The position numbers were made by a program, and so were the translations under genes. A stretch of 64,000 bases of DNA. It comes from Lutjanus erythropterus. Taxonomy: Eukaryota; Chordata; Actinopteri; Lutjaniformes; Lutjanidae. Numbering within the stretch: the stretch's first letter is position 1; the number at the start of each line of letters is the position of its first letter. The notes below the pieces were generated by a model, which was not told the origin of the DNA, did not search any database, and saw only the letters and a list, made by a program, of their open reading frames with translations. The DNA lies in assembly GCA_020091685.1 (NCBI GenBank), contig CM034610.1, positions 25,332,094-25,396,093 of the forward strand. Reading direction: 5' to 3'. This document shows positions 10,536 through 60,800 of the stretch, one piece after another.

Positions 10536-11251
10536 GCACTCTTAGAAACGAAGCTGAAAGGGTTCTTCAGTTTAGCCCCATAGAACCTTTTTTGGTTCCT
10601 GGTAGAACCTTTCATATATGCTCCACTCTGAACCCTTTCAGAGAGTTCTACATAGAACCCATCATAAAGAGTTATACCTTAAGGTTCTACCCAGAACCCT
10701 CTATGAGAGGTTCTACAGAGAAACCATCTATGGTGTAACTGTTCCTCCCAGAACCCTTTCTGGATGTTCTATTTGGAACCTTTCCAGTTTCTCAGGGTGC
10801 CAACAAGAAGCCACTCAAGGGTTTTACCTAGAACCCACTAAGGGGGTTTTACTGAGAACCTTATTATATTCCAAGGGTTTTATCTAGAACACAGTGAGGG
10901 GGTTCTACGGAGAGCCTTCTTATATTCCAGGGGTTTTATCTGGAACACACTGAAGGGGTTCTACAGAGAAGCCTGTTATATTCAAAGGGCTTTATCTAGA
11001 ACCAACTAATGGGGCTCCACAGAGAACCCTTTTATATCCCAAGAGTTTTATCTAGAACTCAGCCTTGATGAAAGAGTTCATCAAGGATTTCGACAAGACT
11101 TGAAACTCTTTCTTCTAAAAAGGGTTCTTTGGATGAAAATGGTTCTTAATGGAGCCCTTAGTCTTTCAAAGAACCCAACAAGCCCTCTCCTCATAAAGGG
11201 AAGTAAATGGTTCTGGGTAGAACCCTTTTGGAACCCTTATTTCTGAGAGCG
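10536..11251. mobile_element. GGTTCTA/AGAACCC element with terminal inverted repeats and internal tandem units
   Basis: The left end GCACTCTTAGAAACGAAG...AAAGGGTTCTTC is the approximate inverse of the right end GAACCCTTATTTCTGAGAGCG. The interior is a series of GGTTCTA(N)AGAACCC half-palindromes. Within it are four consecutive 56-bp units at 10820-10875, 10876-10931, 10932-10987 and 10988-11043, plus a partial unit to about 11063, each beginning GG(T/C)TTTA(T/C)CT. A collinear half-copy at 48846-49165 shows that this is a dispersed element and not only a local satellite. There is no transposase; the superfamily is unknown to me. Confidence 0.7.
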
Positions 11252-18068: not shown

Positions 18069-18312
18069 AGAAAAACAGCAGTGGTGGGTTGGCCCTATAG
18101 CTCAGTTGGTAGAGCTTCCGCCTCATGTACTGAGGCTGTTAGTCCTCTGCAGCAGCCACTGGTTCGACTCCCGCCTGCGGCCCTTTGCTGCGTGTCATTC
18201 CCCCTCTCTTCACCCTATTTCCTGTCTGTTCTTCAGCTGTCCTATCCAATAAAGGCAAAACAGCCCAAAGACATATCTTTTAAAAAAAAGAAAAAGAAAA
18301 ACAGCAGTGGTG
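18069..18312 (+). mobile_element. tRNA-headed SINE with an 18-bp target-site duplication
   Basis: The SINE body is about 18087-18294. The head has an RNA polymerase III A box (TAGCTCAGTTGG, 18098-18109) and B box (GGTTCGACTCC, 18161-18171). It is followed by CCCTTTGCTGCGTGTCATTCCCCCTCTC, a tail with CTGTCCTATCCAATAAAGGC, and an A-rich end. AGAAAAACAGCAGTGGTG occurs perfectly at both sides (18069-18086 and 18295-18312). The perfect duplication suggests a fairly recent insertion. The head is too degenerate in the acceptor and T stems to be a working tRNA gene. The family is very common in percomorph fish as I remember it. Confidence 0.9.
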
Positions 18313-18387: not shown

Positions 18388-18719
18388 CAGAGCTGCAACA
18401 ATTAATCTATTATGGATGGATTATTAAATTAATCACCAACTACTTTGATAATCGATTAATCGTTTTTTTAATTTTAAGAAAAAATAGTCAAATTTCTCTA
18501 ATTCCAGCTTCTAAAATGTGAATATTTTCTGGTTTCTTTACTCCTCTATGACAGTAAACTGAATATCTTTGTGTTCTCGACCAAAAAAAAAGACATAAAA
18601 TGCTAGAAAATGGTGAAAAATGTCAGCCAGTGTTTTGCAGAGCGCAAACAACTAAATGATTAATCAAGATAACAATCCAAAGATCAATCGAATGTAAAGA
18701 TAATCATTAGTTGCAGCAC
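18388..18719 (+). mobile_element. CTGCAACGATTA element, near-full copy
   Basis: It opens CAGAGCTGCAACAATTAATCTATTATGG and closes GATAATCATTAGTTGCAGCAC. The central TTTCTTTACTCCTCTATGACAGTAAACTGAATATCTTTG is well preserved. It starts 76 bp after the SINE. Confidence 0.7.
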
Positions 18720-22496: not shown

Positions 22497-22559
22497 CAAC
22501 CCCGATTCATCCGGCTCACCTTTGTCAGTCGAGCGCCTCGTCTGCCCAGGCAATAAAAA

Positions 22560-22735
22560 TCCTGCACCATAGTAAGGGAGATCCTAGACAAAAGGAGGAG
22601 ATCGTAGGGGCACGGAGAGGATAAAAAACAACACGGGGAGAAAAAAAGGCAGAGAGAAGAAGAGGACAAAAGATAGAGGGAGGGAATAGAAAGGAAAAGA
22701 GGAGAGAGGTAAAGAATGGCCCAGACAGGCAGAGA
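22560..22735. repeat. Purine-rich tract
   Basis: The plus strand is almost wholly A/G from about 22570 to 22715 (AGAGAGAAGAAGAGGACAAAAGATAGAGGGAGGG). Together with the pyrimidine tract downstream it forms a purine-to-pyrimidine switch. Confidence 0.7.
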
Positions 22736-25920: not shown

Positions 25921-26239
25921 GAGCTGCAATGATTAATCAGTTATATCTTAATCTTGGGTAATTTTTTAGTATTTCTGTAAGAAAAAAGTAAACATTCTCA
26001 GATTTCAGCTTCTTAAATGTGAATATTTTTTGGCTTCTTTACTTGTCTCTGGCGGTAAACTGAATATTTTTTAGTTGTGGACAAAACAAGACATTTGATG
26101 ACATCATCTTGGACTCTGATCAACAGTTTTCACCAGTTTCTGGTGCACATTTCATGGACCGAACCACCAGTTGATTAACAGAGAAGATAATCGACAAATT
26201 AATCAATGATAAAAATAATCATCATTGATTGCAGCCCTA
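25921..26239 (+). mobile_element. CTGCAACGATTA element, near-full copy
   Basis: GAGCTGCAATGATTAATCAG at the left and AATAATCATCATTGATTGCAGCCCTA at the right. The interior TTCTTTACTTGTCTCTGGCGGTAAACTGAATATTTT and CATCTTGGACTCTGATCAACAGTTTTCACC is well kept. Confidence 0.7.
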
Positions 26240-31771: not shown

Positions 31772-32414
31772 AAATAGAGCATCGATCATTTCCGACTGTC
31801 AAAATTAAAGACTTACTACCTATTTGGGTCTACAAGCACACCTTGTAATCTGCAGTGAATGGGGCAAACGAAGGGCTAAATATGACATCCCTCTGCAGGA
31901 GCTCAGTGTTCCCGCGTGTCATCCGAACCTGCCCCACTGAAATCCCTCCATTCATTCATGTTTTTTTCTCCTGGGTTCATTAATACAGGAAGGAAGGGGA
32001 CATTCTGTGGAGCAGTAGGTGCCAATCTGTCGCTCTGTGGAGATCAGCCAGACTCAGCTCATGTTAAGCTGCTGCTGCTGCTCCTCCTGAAGCCTCTTAC
32101 ATCCATCTGATAGGTGGCGTGATTAATTTCTACACAGTAAATGCAGTCACTAATGTCACTGGTTATTCCATAGCTTGCTTTGAACGTAAGAAGCAATATA
32201 TATGTAAATGTGCAACATCTGTATATACATGTTTTTTTTCCATTGCATTTATTAGATTTTAAAGTGCACTCACTACTGACGAGATAAAATCATTCAAAAT
32301 GCATAAAAAAAACCTAAAAATCAAGTGTGGTACGTAATTGATTTTTACATCATAGGACTCTGATGATATCCGTGTGATCCACGCGTGGTTGAGCTAATTT
32401 GCCTTTATTACAGC
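31772..32414. other. Intronic DNA without recognised genes
   Basis: Positions 31850-32110 are slightly GC-richer with (CTG)4 at about 32068. No motif assigned. Confidence 0.4.
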
Positions 32415-32676
32415 AAATAAAAAGTAAAAAAAAAAAAAAATCTGGTTTCAGCTTCTTAAAGGTCAATAATTTCTGGTTTCTTTACTCCTCTGTGACACTA
32501 ATGTGAATATCTTTGGCTTGTGGACAAAATAAGACATTTCAGGACATCACTTTGGGCTTTGGGAAACACTGATCGACATTTTTCACCGTTTTATGAACCA
32601 AACAACCAATCGATTAATCACAGAAGCAATCAACAGAATAATCCATAATGAAAATAAATGGTTGGTTGCAGGCCTA
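32415..32676 (+). mobile_element. CTGCAACGATTA element, left end degraded
   Basis: GGTTTCAGCTTCTTAAAGGTCAATAATTTCTGGTTTCTTTACTCCTCTGTGACA, ACATCACTTTGGGCTTTGGGAAACACTGATCGACATTTTTCACC and a right end GGTTGGTTGCAGGCCTA. Confidence 0.65.
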
Positions 32677-41541: not shown

Positions 41542-43877
41542 ATCATCATTTCAATGATCTTTTGTCAGCAATTCCCAACTTTATATAATAATAATAATAA
41601 TACCTATTAATATAATCAATTAAATAACATGACCTTGATCAAAATGACAGGCAGAAAATGGACGGATGGGTGGATGGACCTTTTTACTAAAACAGACACT
41701 GGTCCATTAAGAGTCAACAGCCTCAGGCACTGTCACAACGATCACACTTCTGGTTTATAGATCCAGAAGGGGGTTGGGGGATGTCTACCAAATTGGCTCA
41801 TTGGCTCACTCAGCCGAGAAAACTGAGGCTCCCCATCACCAGATTAACTCTTAAATCCCTGCCAGGAGAGTGCCCAACACACACACACCCCTGTGCCAGC
41901 TTTAAAAGGGTCCTTGTCTCCTTGCCACATGTCTGTAACTTAGTTGTGTTCAGCCTCTGTTGCTCGAAACAAAGTTAGCCGATCTGCAGTTCTCATTGTA
42001 GTATTTTCTTTCCACCCCAACCTACTTGTGTGCATCCGGCAAGTGTCCAAAGAAAAAACAAAACAAAACAATACTTTGACAATTTCATTTAGCAGATGCT
42101 TTTATCCAAAGCAACGTACATCTGAAAGCTGATACAACATAAGCAGACGACACGACGTAGGTTATTGGTAAATCTGAGCTCCAATTTTCTATCTTTTGAA
42201 AGAGGAATTTGAAATGACAGTCAGGGCTTAAAACCAATGATATAGTCTAACAATGGCATACCCATCCATGCTAATACAATTATGTTTAAATTAAAAATAA
42301 AACTGCAACATGATATTAAAATCAAAAGTCAAATTGAATTGTGGACTTGTCACTATAGTGGAGATCTTGCAGATTGCAAACACTTTGGCTCACGCTCCCC
42401 TTCCAAGCATGTAGGAGAAACTACGGTGGCTTTGAAACTCATGAAAAAGTTGCATCTTGAGCCAGTTTTTGGTTTGTTTGCTCTGGGCTATGGGCTATCA
42501 TCATCAAAACAATCTAAGATGATGAAAAGATAATGATTCTTTTATTCACGCATGTTGATTATACACAACAGATCATAAAAATAACTTTCTGATTAACAGG
42601 GGATGGGTTGTGGGTGAGTCTGTCCAGTTGGATGTGTGCGCATTTACACACAAGGCTCAACAGAGCAACGTCTTTAGTTACTTCAGTTTCTGCTGAGGAG
42701 ATTTCTTTGTCCTGTTGAGTTTATACCTGCTTCAAGTTTTGCTGCTCAAGTATCAAAAATGTTTGCTGCAGTGACATTTCTGCAAGCATGGAAATTAAAC
42801 TGAAAGCAGATTTTCAAATCATTAAAGTAAATTGTTAAAGAAAACATTCATGCATCAATACAACACACAAAAAAGAATTCACCTGGAAAGCTCGACAACA
42901 TTTAAATGGTAACAGAGCCCATGGGTCTCTACATTGGAGAAAATCGTACGTTCAGGTGGGTGAATGATTTATGTGTACATGTGGAGGAGTACATCTGTGC
43001 ATCACTATTATACACAAACAAACACATACTTAAAAATATTATTTTGCATTTTGGTCATATTCTGCTGATAAATCCCAGTAAATCTTACAGACTGGATGTT
43101 TAAGACTTTTACATTACTTGTACATTAGGTCATGTACCTGCACCAACATGCATGATGAAACCATGTTTAAATACCAAAACGAATATACATGGCTTGACCT
43201 TGAAAACATTATTTGTTGGGATATTTGAGGTTCACTCAACCTGTACAAAGTGTGTCTCTGGTGAGAAACTTTTACTGTGAAATGGCTGCAGGAACTGTTG
43301 AGTTTGCTTTACAAGCAGATTAACACTGTGCTTTTATTACAGCTCTGATGGCAAAGCAAAGAAAAGCAATCATTAAACAGTGAGGTTCACAACTCAAACC
43401 TCCAGCCACAAAACAACAGTGAAGCCAACATTAAGCAGGTGCTATAAAACTACTGAATTGATGTAAAGAGAGCTTGGCTGAGCTGGGAACTGTCTTGTTG
43501 TGGTCAAAGTGAGGCTGAACAAGCCACTGCTGTGACTGTATAATGGGAACAGCAATCTCCTCAATGCAGCATGACATTGCATGACCAAAGCATGTTTTAA
43601 GTGTCGCTGGAAAACAGGTGTTTTGTTCTCACAACAGGAGGTAAAGCTGTTCAAGCAGCAGGACTGATGAGGGGCTTTGGATCTATTTTAAGCGGAAAAG
43701 AGGTTTTAAGGGGTCTTCAACAGTGACAGATTGCTCTTTAAGAACCGAAATACATTTAATCTTCTGAGCTGCATGTTCCTGCTTCCTAAAATACACCCGC
43801 AGCACGAGTGGCCACCTTCTGTGTGCTGACAGGCAGATGCGTCATTGTTTGTGGCTGGCATCAGAAAACAGACTCAC
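41542..43877. other. Intronic DNA just downstream of the tanc2 start exon
   Basis: Positions 41584-41604 are an (ATA)n run. Positions 42084-42122 (TTCATTTAGCAGATGCTTTTATCCAAAGCAACGTACATC) match, from memory, a short dispersed fish repeat (CATTTAGCAGACGCTTTTATCCAAAGCGACTTACA). The rest is ordinary with no further exon found. Confidence 0.45.
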
Positions 43878-43944
43878 CACTGCTGCGACTCTTGCGGTTG
43901 GCCTTCCCTCCCGTCAGCAACATCTTCAAGCTGTTCCTAAACAT
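43878..43944 (-). CDS. tanc2: First coding exon of a TANC2-like scaffold protein (start codon to splice donor)
   Basis: TANC2 is a large postsynaptic scaffold that binds PSD-95-type proteins; it carries a P-loop ATPase domain, ankyrin repeats and TPRs, all encoded by later exons not found here. Seen: on the minus strand the ATG at 43944-43942 opens 22 codons beginning MFRNSLKMLLTGGK and ending in the basic/serine stretch NRKSRSS. One extra G (43878) follows, then the donor GTGAGTC (43877-43871), so the intron is phase 1. The start is supported by an in-frame TAG at 43968-43966, eight codons upstream, and by G at -3. From memory, vertebrate TANC2 begins almost identically and differs from TANC1, which starts differently. 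The basic, amphipathic segment contains no named domain. I cannot tell a teleost tanc2a from tanc2b copy, and an alternative promoter isoform is possible. The match is recalled, not searched. Confidence 0.85.
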
Positions 43945-44005
43945 GACTGCAGCAGATGCCCTGGACTAGACTACAGAAAAATCTGTCGGGGAAAGAAGAA
44001 GAGAG
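43945..44005 (-). other. tanc2: 3' splice site and 5' UTR segment of the tanc2 start exon
   Basis: Read on the minus strand, a pyrimidine run (about 44005-43987, CTCTCTTCTTCTTTCCCC) leads into GACAG ending at 43983. The exon would then start at 43982 and carry 38 nt of 5' UTR before the ATG, for a total exon of 105 bp. Further AGs follow closely (CTGTAG at 43971, CTGCAG at 43948), so the exact acceptor could shift by a few tens of bases without altering the protein. A spliced acceptor here implies at least one non-coding exon further upstream on the minus strand, that is, at higher coordinates. Confidence 0.7.
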
Positions 44006-48845: not shown

Positions 48846-49165
48846 ACGCACTCAGAAATAAAGATGCCAGAACAATAAACGATTCTTCAGTTTGTTCCCA
48901 ATCAGAGAACCCTTCATGGTTCCTGGTAGAACCATTTATAAAGGTTCCACTTAACCTGACATAGATGGTTATACCAAGAACCATCTGTGGAAGGTTTCGT
49001 CCCGAACTTCCTATGAGAGGTTTTACAGAGAACCCGTCTATGGTGTAATGGTTCCACCCAAAACCCTCTCTGGGGGTTCTATCCAAAACCTTTCCACTGT
49101 CTAAGGACACTAATAAGAACCCACCCAGGGGAGAACCTTTATGTATTCCAAGGGTTTTATCCCGA
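48846..49165 (+). mobile_element. GGTTCTA/AGAACCC element, left half
   Basis: ACGCACTCAGAAATAAAG opens a sequence collinear with 10536-10890: ATTCTTCAGTTT, GGTTCCTGGTAGAACC, CTATGAGAGGTTTTACAGAGAACCCGTCTATGGTGTAATGGTTCC and TATTCCAAGGGTTTTATCC all recur in the same order. It stops at the start of the 56-bp tandem units of the first copy. An apparent long minus-strand frame here (49188-48703) is a property of the repeat. Confidence 0.75.
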
Positions 49166-51179: not shown

Positions 51180-51355
51180 AAATAATTGTCCACAGTCCAA
51201 AAATAATTCAGTTTAGCGCCATTAAGAACAAAGGAAATCTGAAAATATTCACATTTGAGAAGCTGAAATCAGAGAATTTGGGCAGTTTTTCAATTATTAT
51301 GGCAATTAATTTAATAATTGACAAATTATTGATTAACTGACTTAATGTTGTAGCT
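51180..51355 (-). repeat. CTGCAACGATTA element, worn inverted copy
   Basis: TCCACAGTCCAAAAATAATTCAGTTTA, TCACATTTGAGAAGCTGAAATCAGAGAATTTGGGC and GATTAACTGACTTAATGTTGTAGCTTA read as the family in reverse. Confidence 0.5.
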
Positions 51356-51929: not shown

Positions 51930-52945
51930 AGATGAATAGGATGTAATTCCCTCCTTTGATGTGTTTTTGTAGGCTACTTATTATTTTACCGCAAAATCAT
52001 ATATGATGTAAACCTCTGGAAAATCTTAAGGAAATATGACTGAAGCAATACCATCAGAACTTGTTCTTTTCAGCTTTCAATCTACTACTTTTACAAATAG
52101 TAATAATAATTCCCTTGAATAATTGTAAGAAATTAATTTACAAGTTAATATGTTTAAATAAGTGATTTTAAAGTAACGTGACTACAACAAATTGTGAATT
52201 TCACTTGAGTCAAAATGTGGTCTGGCAGTTACTGCAGCTTGGCTAAGCTAACATTAGGCTAGTTAGCTTTTTAGCTATTAGCTGTTTTTATTCTCCATGG
52301 CTGTATTTAGCTTCTGCCTTATTTATGTGGAACAACAAACTAATTTACTAAGATGCCAGTTTACAGAAATTGATATGTTTATAAATATATTTAACAGTTA
52401 GTGAGCTTCGGCCAAGGCTAGTTGTGGCTATCTCCAGCTAGCTTTAGCAGGATTTCACAGTCTTGCTTTAGGATGTAATCCCTGAAGTTTTTTTGTAGGC
52501 TACTTATCCACCATCCATCACCACAAAAGGACCCAAGTATCCACAAACAATACGCGTCCTTTCAGCTTTCTATTATGTTTGAAATAATAACAATGAACTT
52601 AAATAATTAATAGAATAAATTCATTCACAACTTAATACATTTAAATAAGCAATGTAAAAGTAACTTGACCACACCAAATTGTGAACTCCACAAGAGGAAA
52701 AAACTGGTCTCGCAGCTACTGCAGCTTGGCTAAGCTAACATAACGCTAAATAGCTTTTTAGCTGTTTTTATTCTCTATGACTAGATTTTCACCTCTGTCT
52801 TATTTATATGGGACAACAAACTAATTTACCAAGATGTTAGTTTACAGAAAGTGATTAATTTATCAATCAACAGCTGGGGTCTTCAGTTAAGGCTAGTTGT
52901 GGCTATCTCTAGCTAGCTTTAGCGGGATTTGGCTGTCTTGCTGTA
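51930..52945 (+). repeat. Diverged tandem duplication, two units of about 0.5 kb
   Basis: Unit 1 (about 51930-52468) and unit 2 (about 52469-52945) share, in order: AGGATGTAAT(T)CCCT, TTTGTAGGCTACTTAT, CTTTTCAGCTTTC, ACTGCAGCTTGGCTAAGCTAACAT, TTTTTAGCT..., CTTATTTAT(G/A)TGG(A/G)ACAACAAACTAATTTAC and AAGGCTAGTTGTGGCTATCTC(C/T)AGCTAGCTTTAGC. There is no coding content. It may be a local duplication or tandem copies of an unrecognised element. Confidence 0.8.
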
Positions 52946-53727
52946 GATACCTGTGTAGTTCATCATTTGGTTTGATTTTTAGCTTTGTTTTGCTTTAACT
53001 AGATATTTAACATGCTGTTTTCTTTGGAATTCTGTATCACATATGCTAAAATAAACATCAGTAAGTCAGATATTGGTCTTAGCTAGATATGTATTTACTG
53101 CATTTTGGCTTTGTAGGACAGCATAGTGTATCTGAAAAAAAGAGGACTTCACAGAGCAGCCTGATAAATCTGTTTCCATATGTATAGCAGTGAGCTAACC
53201 AGGCAGGGCTGCAGCAGTTTACTAACTGCCAGAGCAGAAAATAGGGAGAGATGTTGCTGTCCGTTTCTAGAGGAGGCAATCAATGTATGAAATCTTAGAG
53301 GACAGGATACTGAGTAGGCAAGTGAAGCGCACACACATATACAGACTCGCCATAGAGAGACAGCCACGCACACAGAAATGTAGCCGTATACACACGCAGC
53401 TGAAGCAATGTTTCATCTGAGGGTGTAAGCATACACATCTCTCATTCCCACTCTCTCTGACCCTGTGTACCGGCCTTTGTGAAGGGAAGCCAAGAAGCAG
53501 CATGCTCTCACAGATAATGTGCGTAAGCGGATGCAGCCCATCTCAGGCTCTTCCACAGCTCGGGCATAATGCTCCTCCAGTGTGTTAAAAACCACTTAAA
53601 GGCACATTCGCCAGCCCGGCTGCGTGATGAGCCACTTTCATCTGGTCACCCTGAAAGCAGCACACTTGTTTGTTCTGATGAAAAATAAAACACAGATGCA
53701 GCTTGGCTCATTTTGTAAGCGAAAGAG
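52946..53727. other. Intronic DNA without recognised genes
   Basis: Positions 53320-53420 are rich in CACACA/ACGCACACAG. Several overlapping short minus-strand frames here are ordinary. No exon assigned. Confidence 0.4.
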
Positions 53728-57800: not shown

Positions 57801-60800
57801 GAAGAAATACAGCCCAATACTGCTGTTGCAAGAGTGAAAACGCCTGAGCAGCCAAAGCACAATGAAGCATCAACGGTCTGAGAGTGACAAATGGACTTCG
57901 CCCTGAGGGACACACATTTCTTGGAGCACTTACAGTAGAACTGGGCGGTCTGGCTGGGAAACATGAATGTCAGACCCTAATCAAATAAAAACAGCCGCAG
58001 GGGAAGCATTGTTTCAGAATATTTATCATGAAACAGCCGTATAATTGAAGCTGAGTCATCCTCAATCCATTGATTTCCTCCACTTGTTTCCACACACTTT
58101 CAGGGTTCAGGGGAGAAGGAGCGAGGTGGGCAGCAGAGTGGCAGATGGACCTGTTCATTAAATCAAGATCCTGCTGCAGAGGCGCATCTCTAAACACAGC
58201 AGAGAACATATTCTCACTCAAAAGGCAAAAACAGGACTCAAGCTGGGGGCTTGCTCAGTCAGAGCCTCCTCCTCCCTCATTTCGCCAGCAGCAGACACCC
58301 CGCAGCATCAGACGGGGATAAATCACACGCCCATCTCCAGTTTGAGGATGGCCGGGGGAGCACAGTTCCATAAATCACACTGATATCAATAAGGGGAAGT
58401 GTCAGGCCCCGGCTCACAAGGTGAGGGCTGCACAGGCCGATGCAGAAACCACTTAAGGTTGCTGGTAACAAAGTTTCACTGCTGCCCCATGGTAGATTAT
58501 TTATTAATCTAGATTAATGCCCCTGCACTCATTGCTTTGCAGGGGAAGGTGGTGATATCTGTATCCTGATGTACCATATAAGGCTTTGATCAGTCACACA
58601 GGAGACTCCAGGGTGACCAAGATTACTGTTTAAAGTAAAGTTCCTCGGCTTTTTAGTTCAACACGGAACATAAGGTACGTTCAAATCACACTTGAGGATA
58701 GTGTCACATACCAAAGTGTAGGCGTTTCATTTTTTCCAAGAATTGAAAGGTATTTCAGCTGAAACAGGGTAATAGCTGATATCAAAATGTCAAATGAAAC
58801 AAATGTGTTCTGTGTAAGAAAGAGATCGGTTATAAAATATGGAGCGGTAAGTTCCCGAAGAACTGTTTTAAAGTTATCCTCAATATTTCTCAACATTCAA
58901 ACATAAAAATATCCTGGATAACTTTATGATAGTAGTTTTTTGTTATGGCCATCATGGCTATAAATACTACGATACCCATGAGCCTCGGCTGCCTTTCTTA
59001 TGGAGAGGAAGACAAATCAGAGTTGTATTGAATTCAGAACGATTTGTTGTTGCAACTGGGATTAAAACACCATGACACAGCTGCTGAATTCACACAAAAT
59101 GTACCCAGATTCTGAAAATGAACTAATTTAATCTCTGTCTCTGTTTTCCTGTACAGAGATTATAAACTTTATTCAACCAGGAAAATATTATGTCCATCCA
59201 AACCTTCAGAGTGCTCCGACAAGGCCTGATGATGATGCACGACAAATCGTTCAATATTACCATGGCGATAAGATGGCGATAAATCTAATCGTTCCCCAAA
59301 ATAATTACAAGTAGCAGAAGTGCCGTTCTTTTTCCACCACAAGGTCTTCATCAACCACACTTTCCTCGCTCTCCACCAGTCGCCACCAAACTGACATAAT
59401 TTAATCAAGAGTAGCTGACAGGGTGCATGAATGCATGCATGCATGGCGAGCGTTTTCTGTGATGCGTTTATCTCCCGTGTTCATATCACACAGATGAAGA
59501 TACTATTTCTTGTCAGCACTAGTTGCAACGGGGATCGAAACGGCACGCCAAAGTTATGGAATTCATGCAAAATCTTACCCCGACTCTGAAAATTAACTGA
59601 TTTAAAGACGTAATGTGCAACACTTTCCAAAAAAAACAAAACAAAAACTTTTCAGAAACATGATTCCTCAGTCATTACTTAAAACCCACATGAGACCCCA
59701 ACCTCACCTTCTTATTTTCTCATTATTTTGCTGTGCTTGGGATGCTAAAATGTCAGTGTTTGACATCCTGTGAAAGAGATTCTACAGTCAACAATCTTTG
59801 TGTGTGTGTTTACAAACAGTAAGTGAAAAATCCTACTTATTCTATTCTCTATTCAGTAATTGGATTTTTTTTTTTTTACTACACCTTGAGATCTGTGGTT
59901 GACTTTTCTTTTCTCTTTTCAGTGAGACAATGTGGGAGACATTACTGTCCTGAGAGGTAGTCTAAAGTTTTGATATGATGTCTATCTAACTTAGAAAATA
60001 AACATGTCTCTTTTGCCCCTCGGCTCCTAACATTTTTATGCTTCACCCTCTGATTGAGTCAGTAGTACACAACAGACTATTCCAGGTACAATTTGGGCCT
60101 TTAGCATGTGAAGGATTTAATATATTTCATTTGAATGCAGCTTTCCCAAATTTCACAATAAGTAGACTAAGTAAGTAAGCATAAACCTGTATTTTAGGGA
60201 GTGCTGCACAGAGCGGTACACACTCGTCATTTCAGAGGCTTTTACCTTATCTGTCTGAAATAACTTATAAGTAGTTCCCCTGTCTTTGTTACAGCTGCAT
60301 TTCCTTTTCTTTGTGGTAGTTCCATCATTTTCTGCCTCAATCTGCATAGCTTGTGATTCGCAATTCTCCCCTTTGGGCGCAGCGTAGACAGCAAAGACGG
60401 TGACAGGGTTAACCTGAACCTGACCTGTGTGTGTGCAGTTTGACTGACATCAAATACAGCCCTGTGATGACAGCCACCCCTGCTTTCTTCACAGCCATTG
60501 GATAAAAGCCAGAGGTTTGACTTTTGAAAAGTAGAGCCAATCAAAATGCGGGACATTGTCTCCGAGTGGGATGTGGAATAAAAATGCTGTGCAAAATGTA
60601 ACATAAAGTGGGAACACCTGGTCATATTACTGTATTTGGTGAATCGGCCTGAGGTGATTCAATAACAGTTATGGAAATACGTCAATTTGCATAACGTGCT
60701 TCAACATGTTGTAATGAACTACAACCCCTGGTCAGAGTACGGATTCATCCAGAGAACATGTTGCAGCTAATCAGCTTCACCCATGATTGTTTTAAGTGTG

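Follow-up and report, generated by a model that had tools for sequence, protein, structure and literature searches.

This locus raises the question of whether one small exon can anchor a whole stretch of DNA as the 5′ part of tanc2, a nerve-cell scaffold gene that in humans is a neurodevelopmental disorder gene. The stretch analyzed, referred to here as the window, is 64,000 nt long and corresponds to C20:25332094-25396093 on a 33 Mb contig, in a genome of 937,629,617 bases and 444 contigs that looks fish-like from its size, its repeats, and its duplicated tanc genes; positions given without a contig name are window positions. Reading the sequence base by base placed the exon at 43982-43878 on the minus strand, with a length of 105 nt. 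It is preceded by a pyrimidine-rich 3′ splice acceptor tract (43983-44005) that ends in CCCCGACAG, and it opens with a 38-nt 5′ untranslated leader part (43945-43982) containing an in-frame TAG at 43968-43966. A start codon ATG follows at 43944-43942 with G at -3, and the coding part (43878-43944) consists of 22 codons, translated as MFRNSLKMLLTGGKANRKSRSS, plus the first base of codon 23, so that the exon ends in phase 1 at a GTGAGT 5′ splice donor (43872-43877), again on the minus strand. The preliminary description of the window had named each of these elements, and all of them were present to the exact base. Scored with rough weight matrices, the acceptor at 43983 is one of 23 among 8246 AG sites on both strands of the window that score at least as high as it does (itself counted), and the donor at 43877 is one of 19 among 7214 GT sites counted in the same way. 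Two candidates in the window, 43982-43878 and 22520-22583, combine splice sites that score no lower than these, separated by 60 to 300 nt, and a reading frame that starts with ATG and stays open for 15 or more codons up to the donor. From this arrangement it follows that exon 43982-43878 would supply the start codon. Any special role for the basic, hydrophobic first 14 residues, for example in targeting or stability, would be a guess.

The claim that vertebrate TANC2 starts with a nearly identical segment also held when the translation of 43944-43878 was compared with a provisional version of the human TANC2 start (Q9HCD6, 1,990 residues): 19 of 22 residues are identical, including all 14 of the stretch MFRNSLKMLLTGGK. 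The human TANC1 sequence used below was likewise a provisional version, and the protein collection compared with the peptide consisted of PDB chains; neither PDB nor Pfam searches with the short peptide gave a match, which is unsurprising for 23 residues. Searching the window with human TANC2 by tblastn returned exon 1 with an E value of 8.5e-6, the best other TANC2 match inside the window having an E value of 0.47. The ungapped score was 96 at exon 1 and at most 31 elsewhere in the window, and the controls reached 23-31 (eight shuffled windows) and 35 (reversed window). A 14-codon degenerate pattern matched the window once and none of 100 shuffles; its exact form had no matches in viral_contigs and genome_contigs, which hold viruses and prokaryotes, making this result unsurprising. 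A literature search found neither the peptide nor the TANC2 first coding exon, and tanc2a/tanc2b appeared in it only off-subject.

The genome was then searched with residues 1-975 of the provisional TANC2 sequence, with 47 of 159 candidates scored and matches kept at E values up to 0.01. The 52 matches among the scored candidates fell on C20 (15), C19 (11), C1 (9), C6 (8, one of them far off and on the opposite strand), C8 (5), and C15, C14, C13, and C9 (one each). All 15 matches on C20 lie on the minus strand within 25207026-25271196 and follow the query order, from residues 63-132 at 25270990-25271196 to residues 941-975 at 25207026-25207130, each with 61-88% identity, over query residues 63-975. 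Judged from these matches, the P-loop NTPase and ankyrin regions (TANC domain names as used in PMC5533708) are located downstream, on the same strand and in order. Further TANC2 features, the TPR repeats, the disordered tail, and a C-terminal PDZ-binding motif, would be expected past residue 975, where the query ended. From exon 1 to the first body match on C20 the distance is about 105 kb, and exon 1 sits on the upstream side in the right orientation. Exons 1 to 4 are absent from the 52 genome matches, presumably because their short length or their divergence kept them from being scored genome-wide; exons 2 to 4 were sought locally in a 60-kb stretch adjoining the window on its left side. Exon 2 (C20:25323722-25323793, 72 nt) and exon 3 (C20:25317308-25317487, 180 nt) were recovered as local matches to TANC2, with E values of 9e-6 and 8e-8, respectively, and local searching also gave exon 4 (C20:25283006-25283122, 117 nt); exon 5 is at C20:25271023-25271171 (149 nt), and all of these are on the minus strand. 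Every join among exons 1 to 5 is GT-AG and all four joins are in phase 1; joined together, the exons give a frame of 585 nt that contains no stop, with the frame of exon 1 running on into exon 2 as GAT (D). Intron 1 measures 52,177 bp; because exon 2 starts about 8.3 kb past the left end of the window, positions 1-43877 are part of intron 1. The same-strand body in order downstream and the in-frame, phase-1 joins of exons 1 to 5 uphold the proposal that this exon is the 5′ anchor of tanc2, and the gene's identity now rests on the position of the downstream TANC2-like body as well as on the start peptide.

A second copy was recognized on C19. A degenerate 24-nt pattern made of synonymous codons for residues 1-8 had three genome matches, with 0.21 expected by chance and none in the control: the window exon, the C19 copy, and a place on C8 that is unrelated by translation. 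The C19 first coding exon starts MFRNSLKMLLGGK and reads MFRNSLKMLLGGKSHKNNSG; its donor, in phase 1, is GTCAGT, and upstream of it stands a tract resembling an acceptor, both ends having been read by eye. Since the 24-nt pattern forces synonymous codons, the agreement of the C19 copy over codons 1-8 is not independent evidence; the residues after the first eight, and the place of the copy, can be counted as such. The C19 copy resembles the C20 gene in having this first coding exon, a phase-1 donor, and an exon-3-like exon downstream, but it is much faster changing and its exon-3-like exon follows about 0.9 kb after exon 1. Human TANC2, as the vertebrate counterpart, has a nearly identical start and its body in the same order as the C20 gene.

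It is barely credible that the exon is noncoding DNA in which an acceptor, an ATG, and a donor have come together by chance, with a fortuitous likeness to TANC2. Degenerate matches do occur, as the unrelated place on C8 that fits the 24-nt pattern illustrates, but the 14-codon pattern is expected only 1.4e-12 times in the window by chance, the gene body follows on the same strand and in order, and exon 1 joins exon 2 in frame; the position of exons 2 to 5 speaks strongly against a chance array. More room is left for a real exon that provides a minor alternative start, most mature tanc2 transcripts using another first coding exon, although we consider this unlikely as well. Because all four junctions among exons 1 to 5 are in phase 1, these exons could be skipped in frame, and the TANC N-terminal region is reported to vary among sequences (PMC5533708); the C19 copy nevertheless retains a first exon of similar type, and the peptide closely matches the human start.

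The exon might also be the first exon of a tanc1 gene. Raw identity over three exons places C20 nearer to C6 (64/83, 66/95, and 48/58 identities) than to C19 (55/79, 51/78 in the exon for aa 314-404, and 34/54) in every case, while C19 is nearest to C20 and C1 is nearest to C6 in all three. Among the scored matches, the highest-ranking hit to TANC2 falls on C6 and not on C20 (E 8.8e-92, 68% identity, 215 query residues), and over query residues of about 448-536 the identity is 84% for C6 versus 83% for C20. The C20 gene, moreover, encodes a segment shared with TANC1, described below; TANC1 belongs to the same family and shares the start pattern loosely, the human TANC1 and TANC2 starts agreeing with each other at 8 of 22 positions. 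Against this, the exon 1 peptide matches the TANC1 start at 8 of 22 residues versus 19 of 22 for TANC2, and the best match to the TANC1 start region is on C6. In a tree built from 255 columns of the three exons, with the provisional human TANC1 and TANC2 sequences included, C6 and C1 join TANC1 with support of 100 and C20 stays apart. In this tree, human TANC1 was represented by just a portion of a single exon; at that exon, C20 has 33/46 identities to TANC1 and 34/43 to TANC2. C20 and C19 join next to human TANC2 with support of 78-81, and the long branches on C19 and C1 point to unequal rates as the reason that C20 is nearer to C6 by raw identity. A tanc1 exon is therefore very improbable at this position; most probably, the copies on C20 and C19 are duplicates of tanc2, and those on C6 and C1 of tanc1.

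The reading that we prefer, with a probability of roughly 0.96, is that the exon represents the first coding exon of the tanc2 orthologue on C20. A noncoding leader exon farther upstream would be spliced to the acceptor at 43983, and ribosomes would start at the ATG at 43944, past the in-frame leader stop, so that exon 1 encodes residues 1 to 22. From its phase-1 donor at 43877, splicing would then cross the 52-kb intron to exon 2, G and AT at the junction forming the codon for the aspartate of ...RSSDGGSE, and the product would be the TANC2 scaffold protein. Transcription and splicing in cells are presumed here, and function is presumed by orthology. Kim et al. (PMC8113471) report that human Tanc2 aa 127-1990, a near-full-length form, could still bind mTOR in HEK293T cells and inhibit it; given that aa 127-1990 was active there, the 22 residues of exon 1 are probably not needed for mTOR activity. 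The feature is real but is ordinary gene anatomy. For tanc2 in this genome it indicates where the protein probably starts, how the first exons are arranged, and that the first intron is 52 kb long, and such a map of the start and exons is useful to gene models and to knock-out design in fish disorder models. The preliminary description also proposed that so short an exon might escape gene predictors and leave the protein start misannotated.

On the upstream side of the exon, no tanc2 coding match was found in 43983-64000 when human TANC2 was compared with the window. A noncoding leader exon was not recognized when the upstream part of the window and 10 kb beyond it were compared with 10 kb of C19, nor when the whole window was compared with 20 kb of C19. 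The comparison of the window with C19 gave many short matches, mostly at the same few C19 spots, and we read these as probable repeats. Because the leader exon was not located, 43983-64000 may be either leader intron or 5′ flank. The preliminary description had assigned the other 63.9 kb of the window to tanc2 intron or flank; this can now be made specific for 43.9 kb of it (1-43877), which is intron 1. Under a loose CpG rule, three 500-bp windows pass, all of them inside intron 1, and none pass in the next 10 kb outside the window. With 400-bp windows, a weak upstream CpG peak is seen near 59233 (GC 0.42, CpG ratio 1.03) and another beyond the window at about C20:25402926-25403425 (GC 0.51, CpG ratio 0.69), either of which could be a promoter. 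The window contains 239 stop-to-stop frames of at least 60 aa; 10 of the 12 longest were searched against Pfam, two low-complexity frames being left out, and none of the 10 reached the curated cut-off.

Exons 3 and 4 carry the TANC1-like segment mentioned above. Gasparini et al. (PMC5533708) describe a 54-residue segment common to TANC1 and only some TANC2 sequences, including those of fish, and suggest that it was present first in TANC1, was duplicated in TANC2 orthologues, and was lost in other organisms. In tanc2 on C20, about 50 residues resembling TANC1 are encoded by the end of exon 3 (SLPSSPLL...) together with exon 4 (APLRKAKFVESPRIP...), a stretch that the provisional canonical human TANC2 sequence lacks. 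In tanc1 on C6, an exon junction divides the segment at the equivalent point, and SLPSSPLL is also retained in the exon-3-like exon on C19. The stretch in exons 3 and 4 on C20 is probably the segment described by Gasparini et al. Its residence in ordinary exons of tanc2, with the same split in tanc1, fits a segment that is ancestral to both paralogues. We regard it as an evenly balanced proposition that this is an ancestral exon pair which tanc2 has kept here and which the canonical mammalian form skips or has lost, rather than a later copy from TANC1, with the run of phase-1 junctions making the TANC2 N-terminus a cassette that splicing could shorten in frame. The TANC1-shared exons may bear on the published view of how the TANC2 N-terminus evolved.

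In human gene order ACE lies near TANC2, a neighborhood that does not define orthology. Peptidase_M2 (ACE-type) matches were located at C20:12059291-12083139, about 13 Mb from tanc2 on C20, and also at C1:14798374-14808001, where the tanc gene of that contig is about 0.7 Mb away; given these positions, the human neighbor order is not kept around the C20 gene. Within the window, ARAGORN called a 92-nt tRNA-Met at 18092-18183, and Rfam reported no family at its threshold over the whole window. The called region has A- and B-box-like motifs with an A-rich stretch downstream and looks like a tRNA-derived SINE. A tandem array with a 56-bp unit in about 4.3 copies occupies 10816-11058, and a single copy weakly related to this unit (63%) lies at 49047-49124. 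Members of a dispersed repeat family, 71-80% alike, are found at 18463-18588, 25964-26089, and 32407-32532 and, inverted, at 51199-51290; the same family was matched several times in the 20-kb stretch of C19. Finally, a diverged tandem duplication spans 52118-52946, its copies spaced about 480 bp apart and 80-86% alike.
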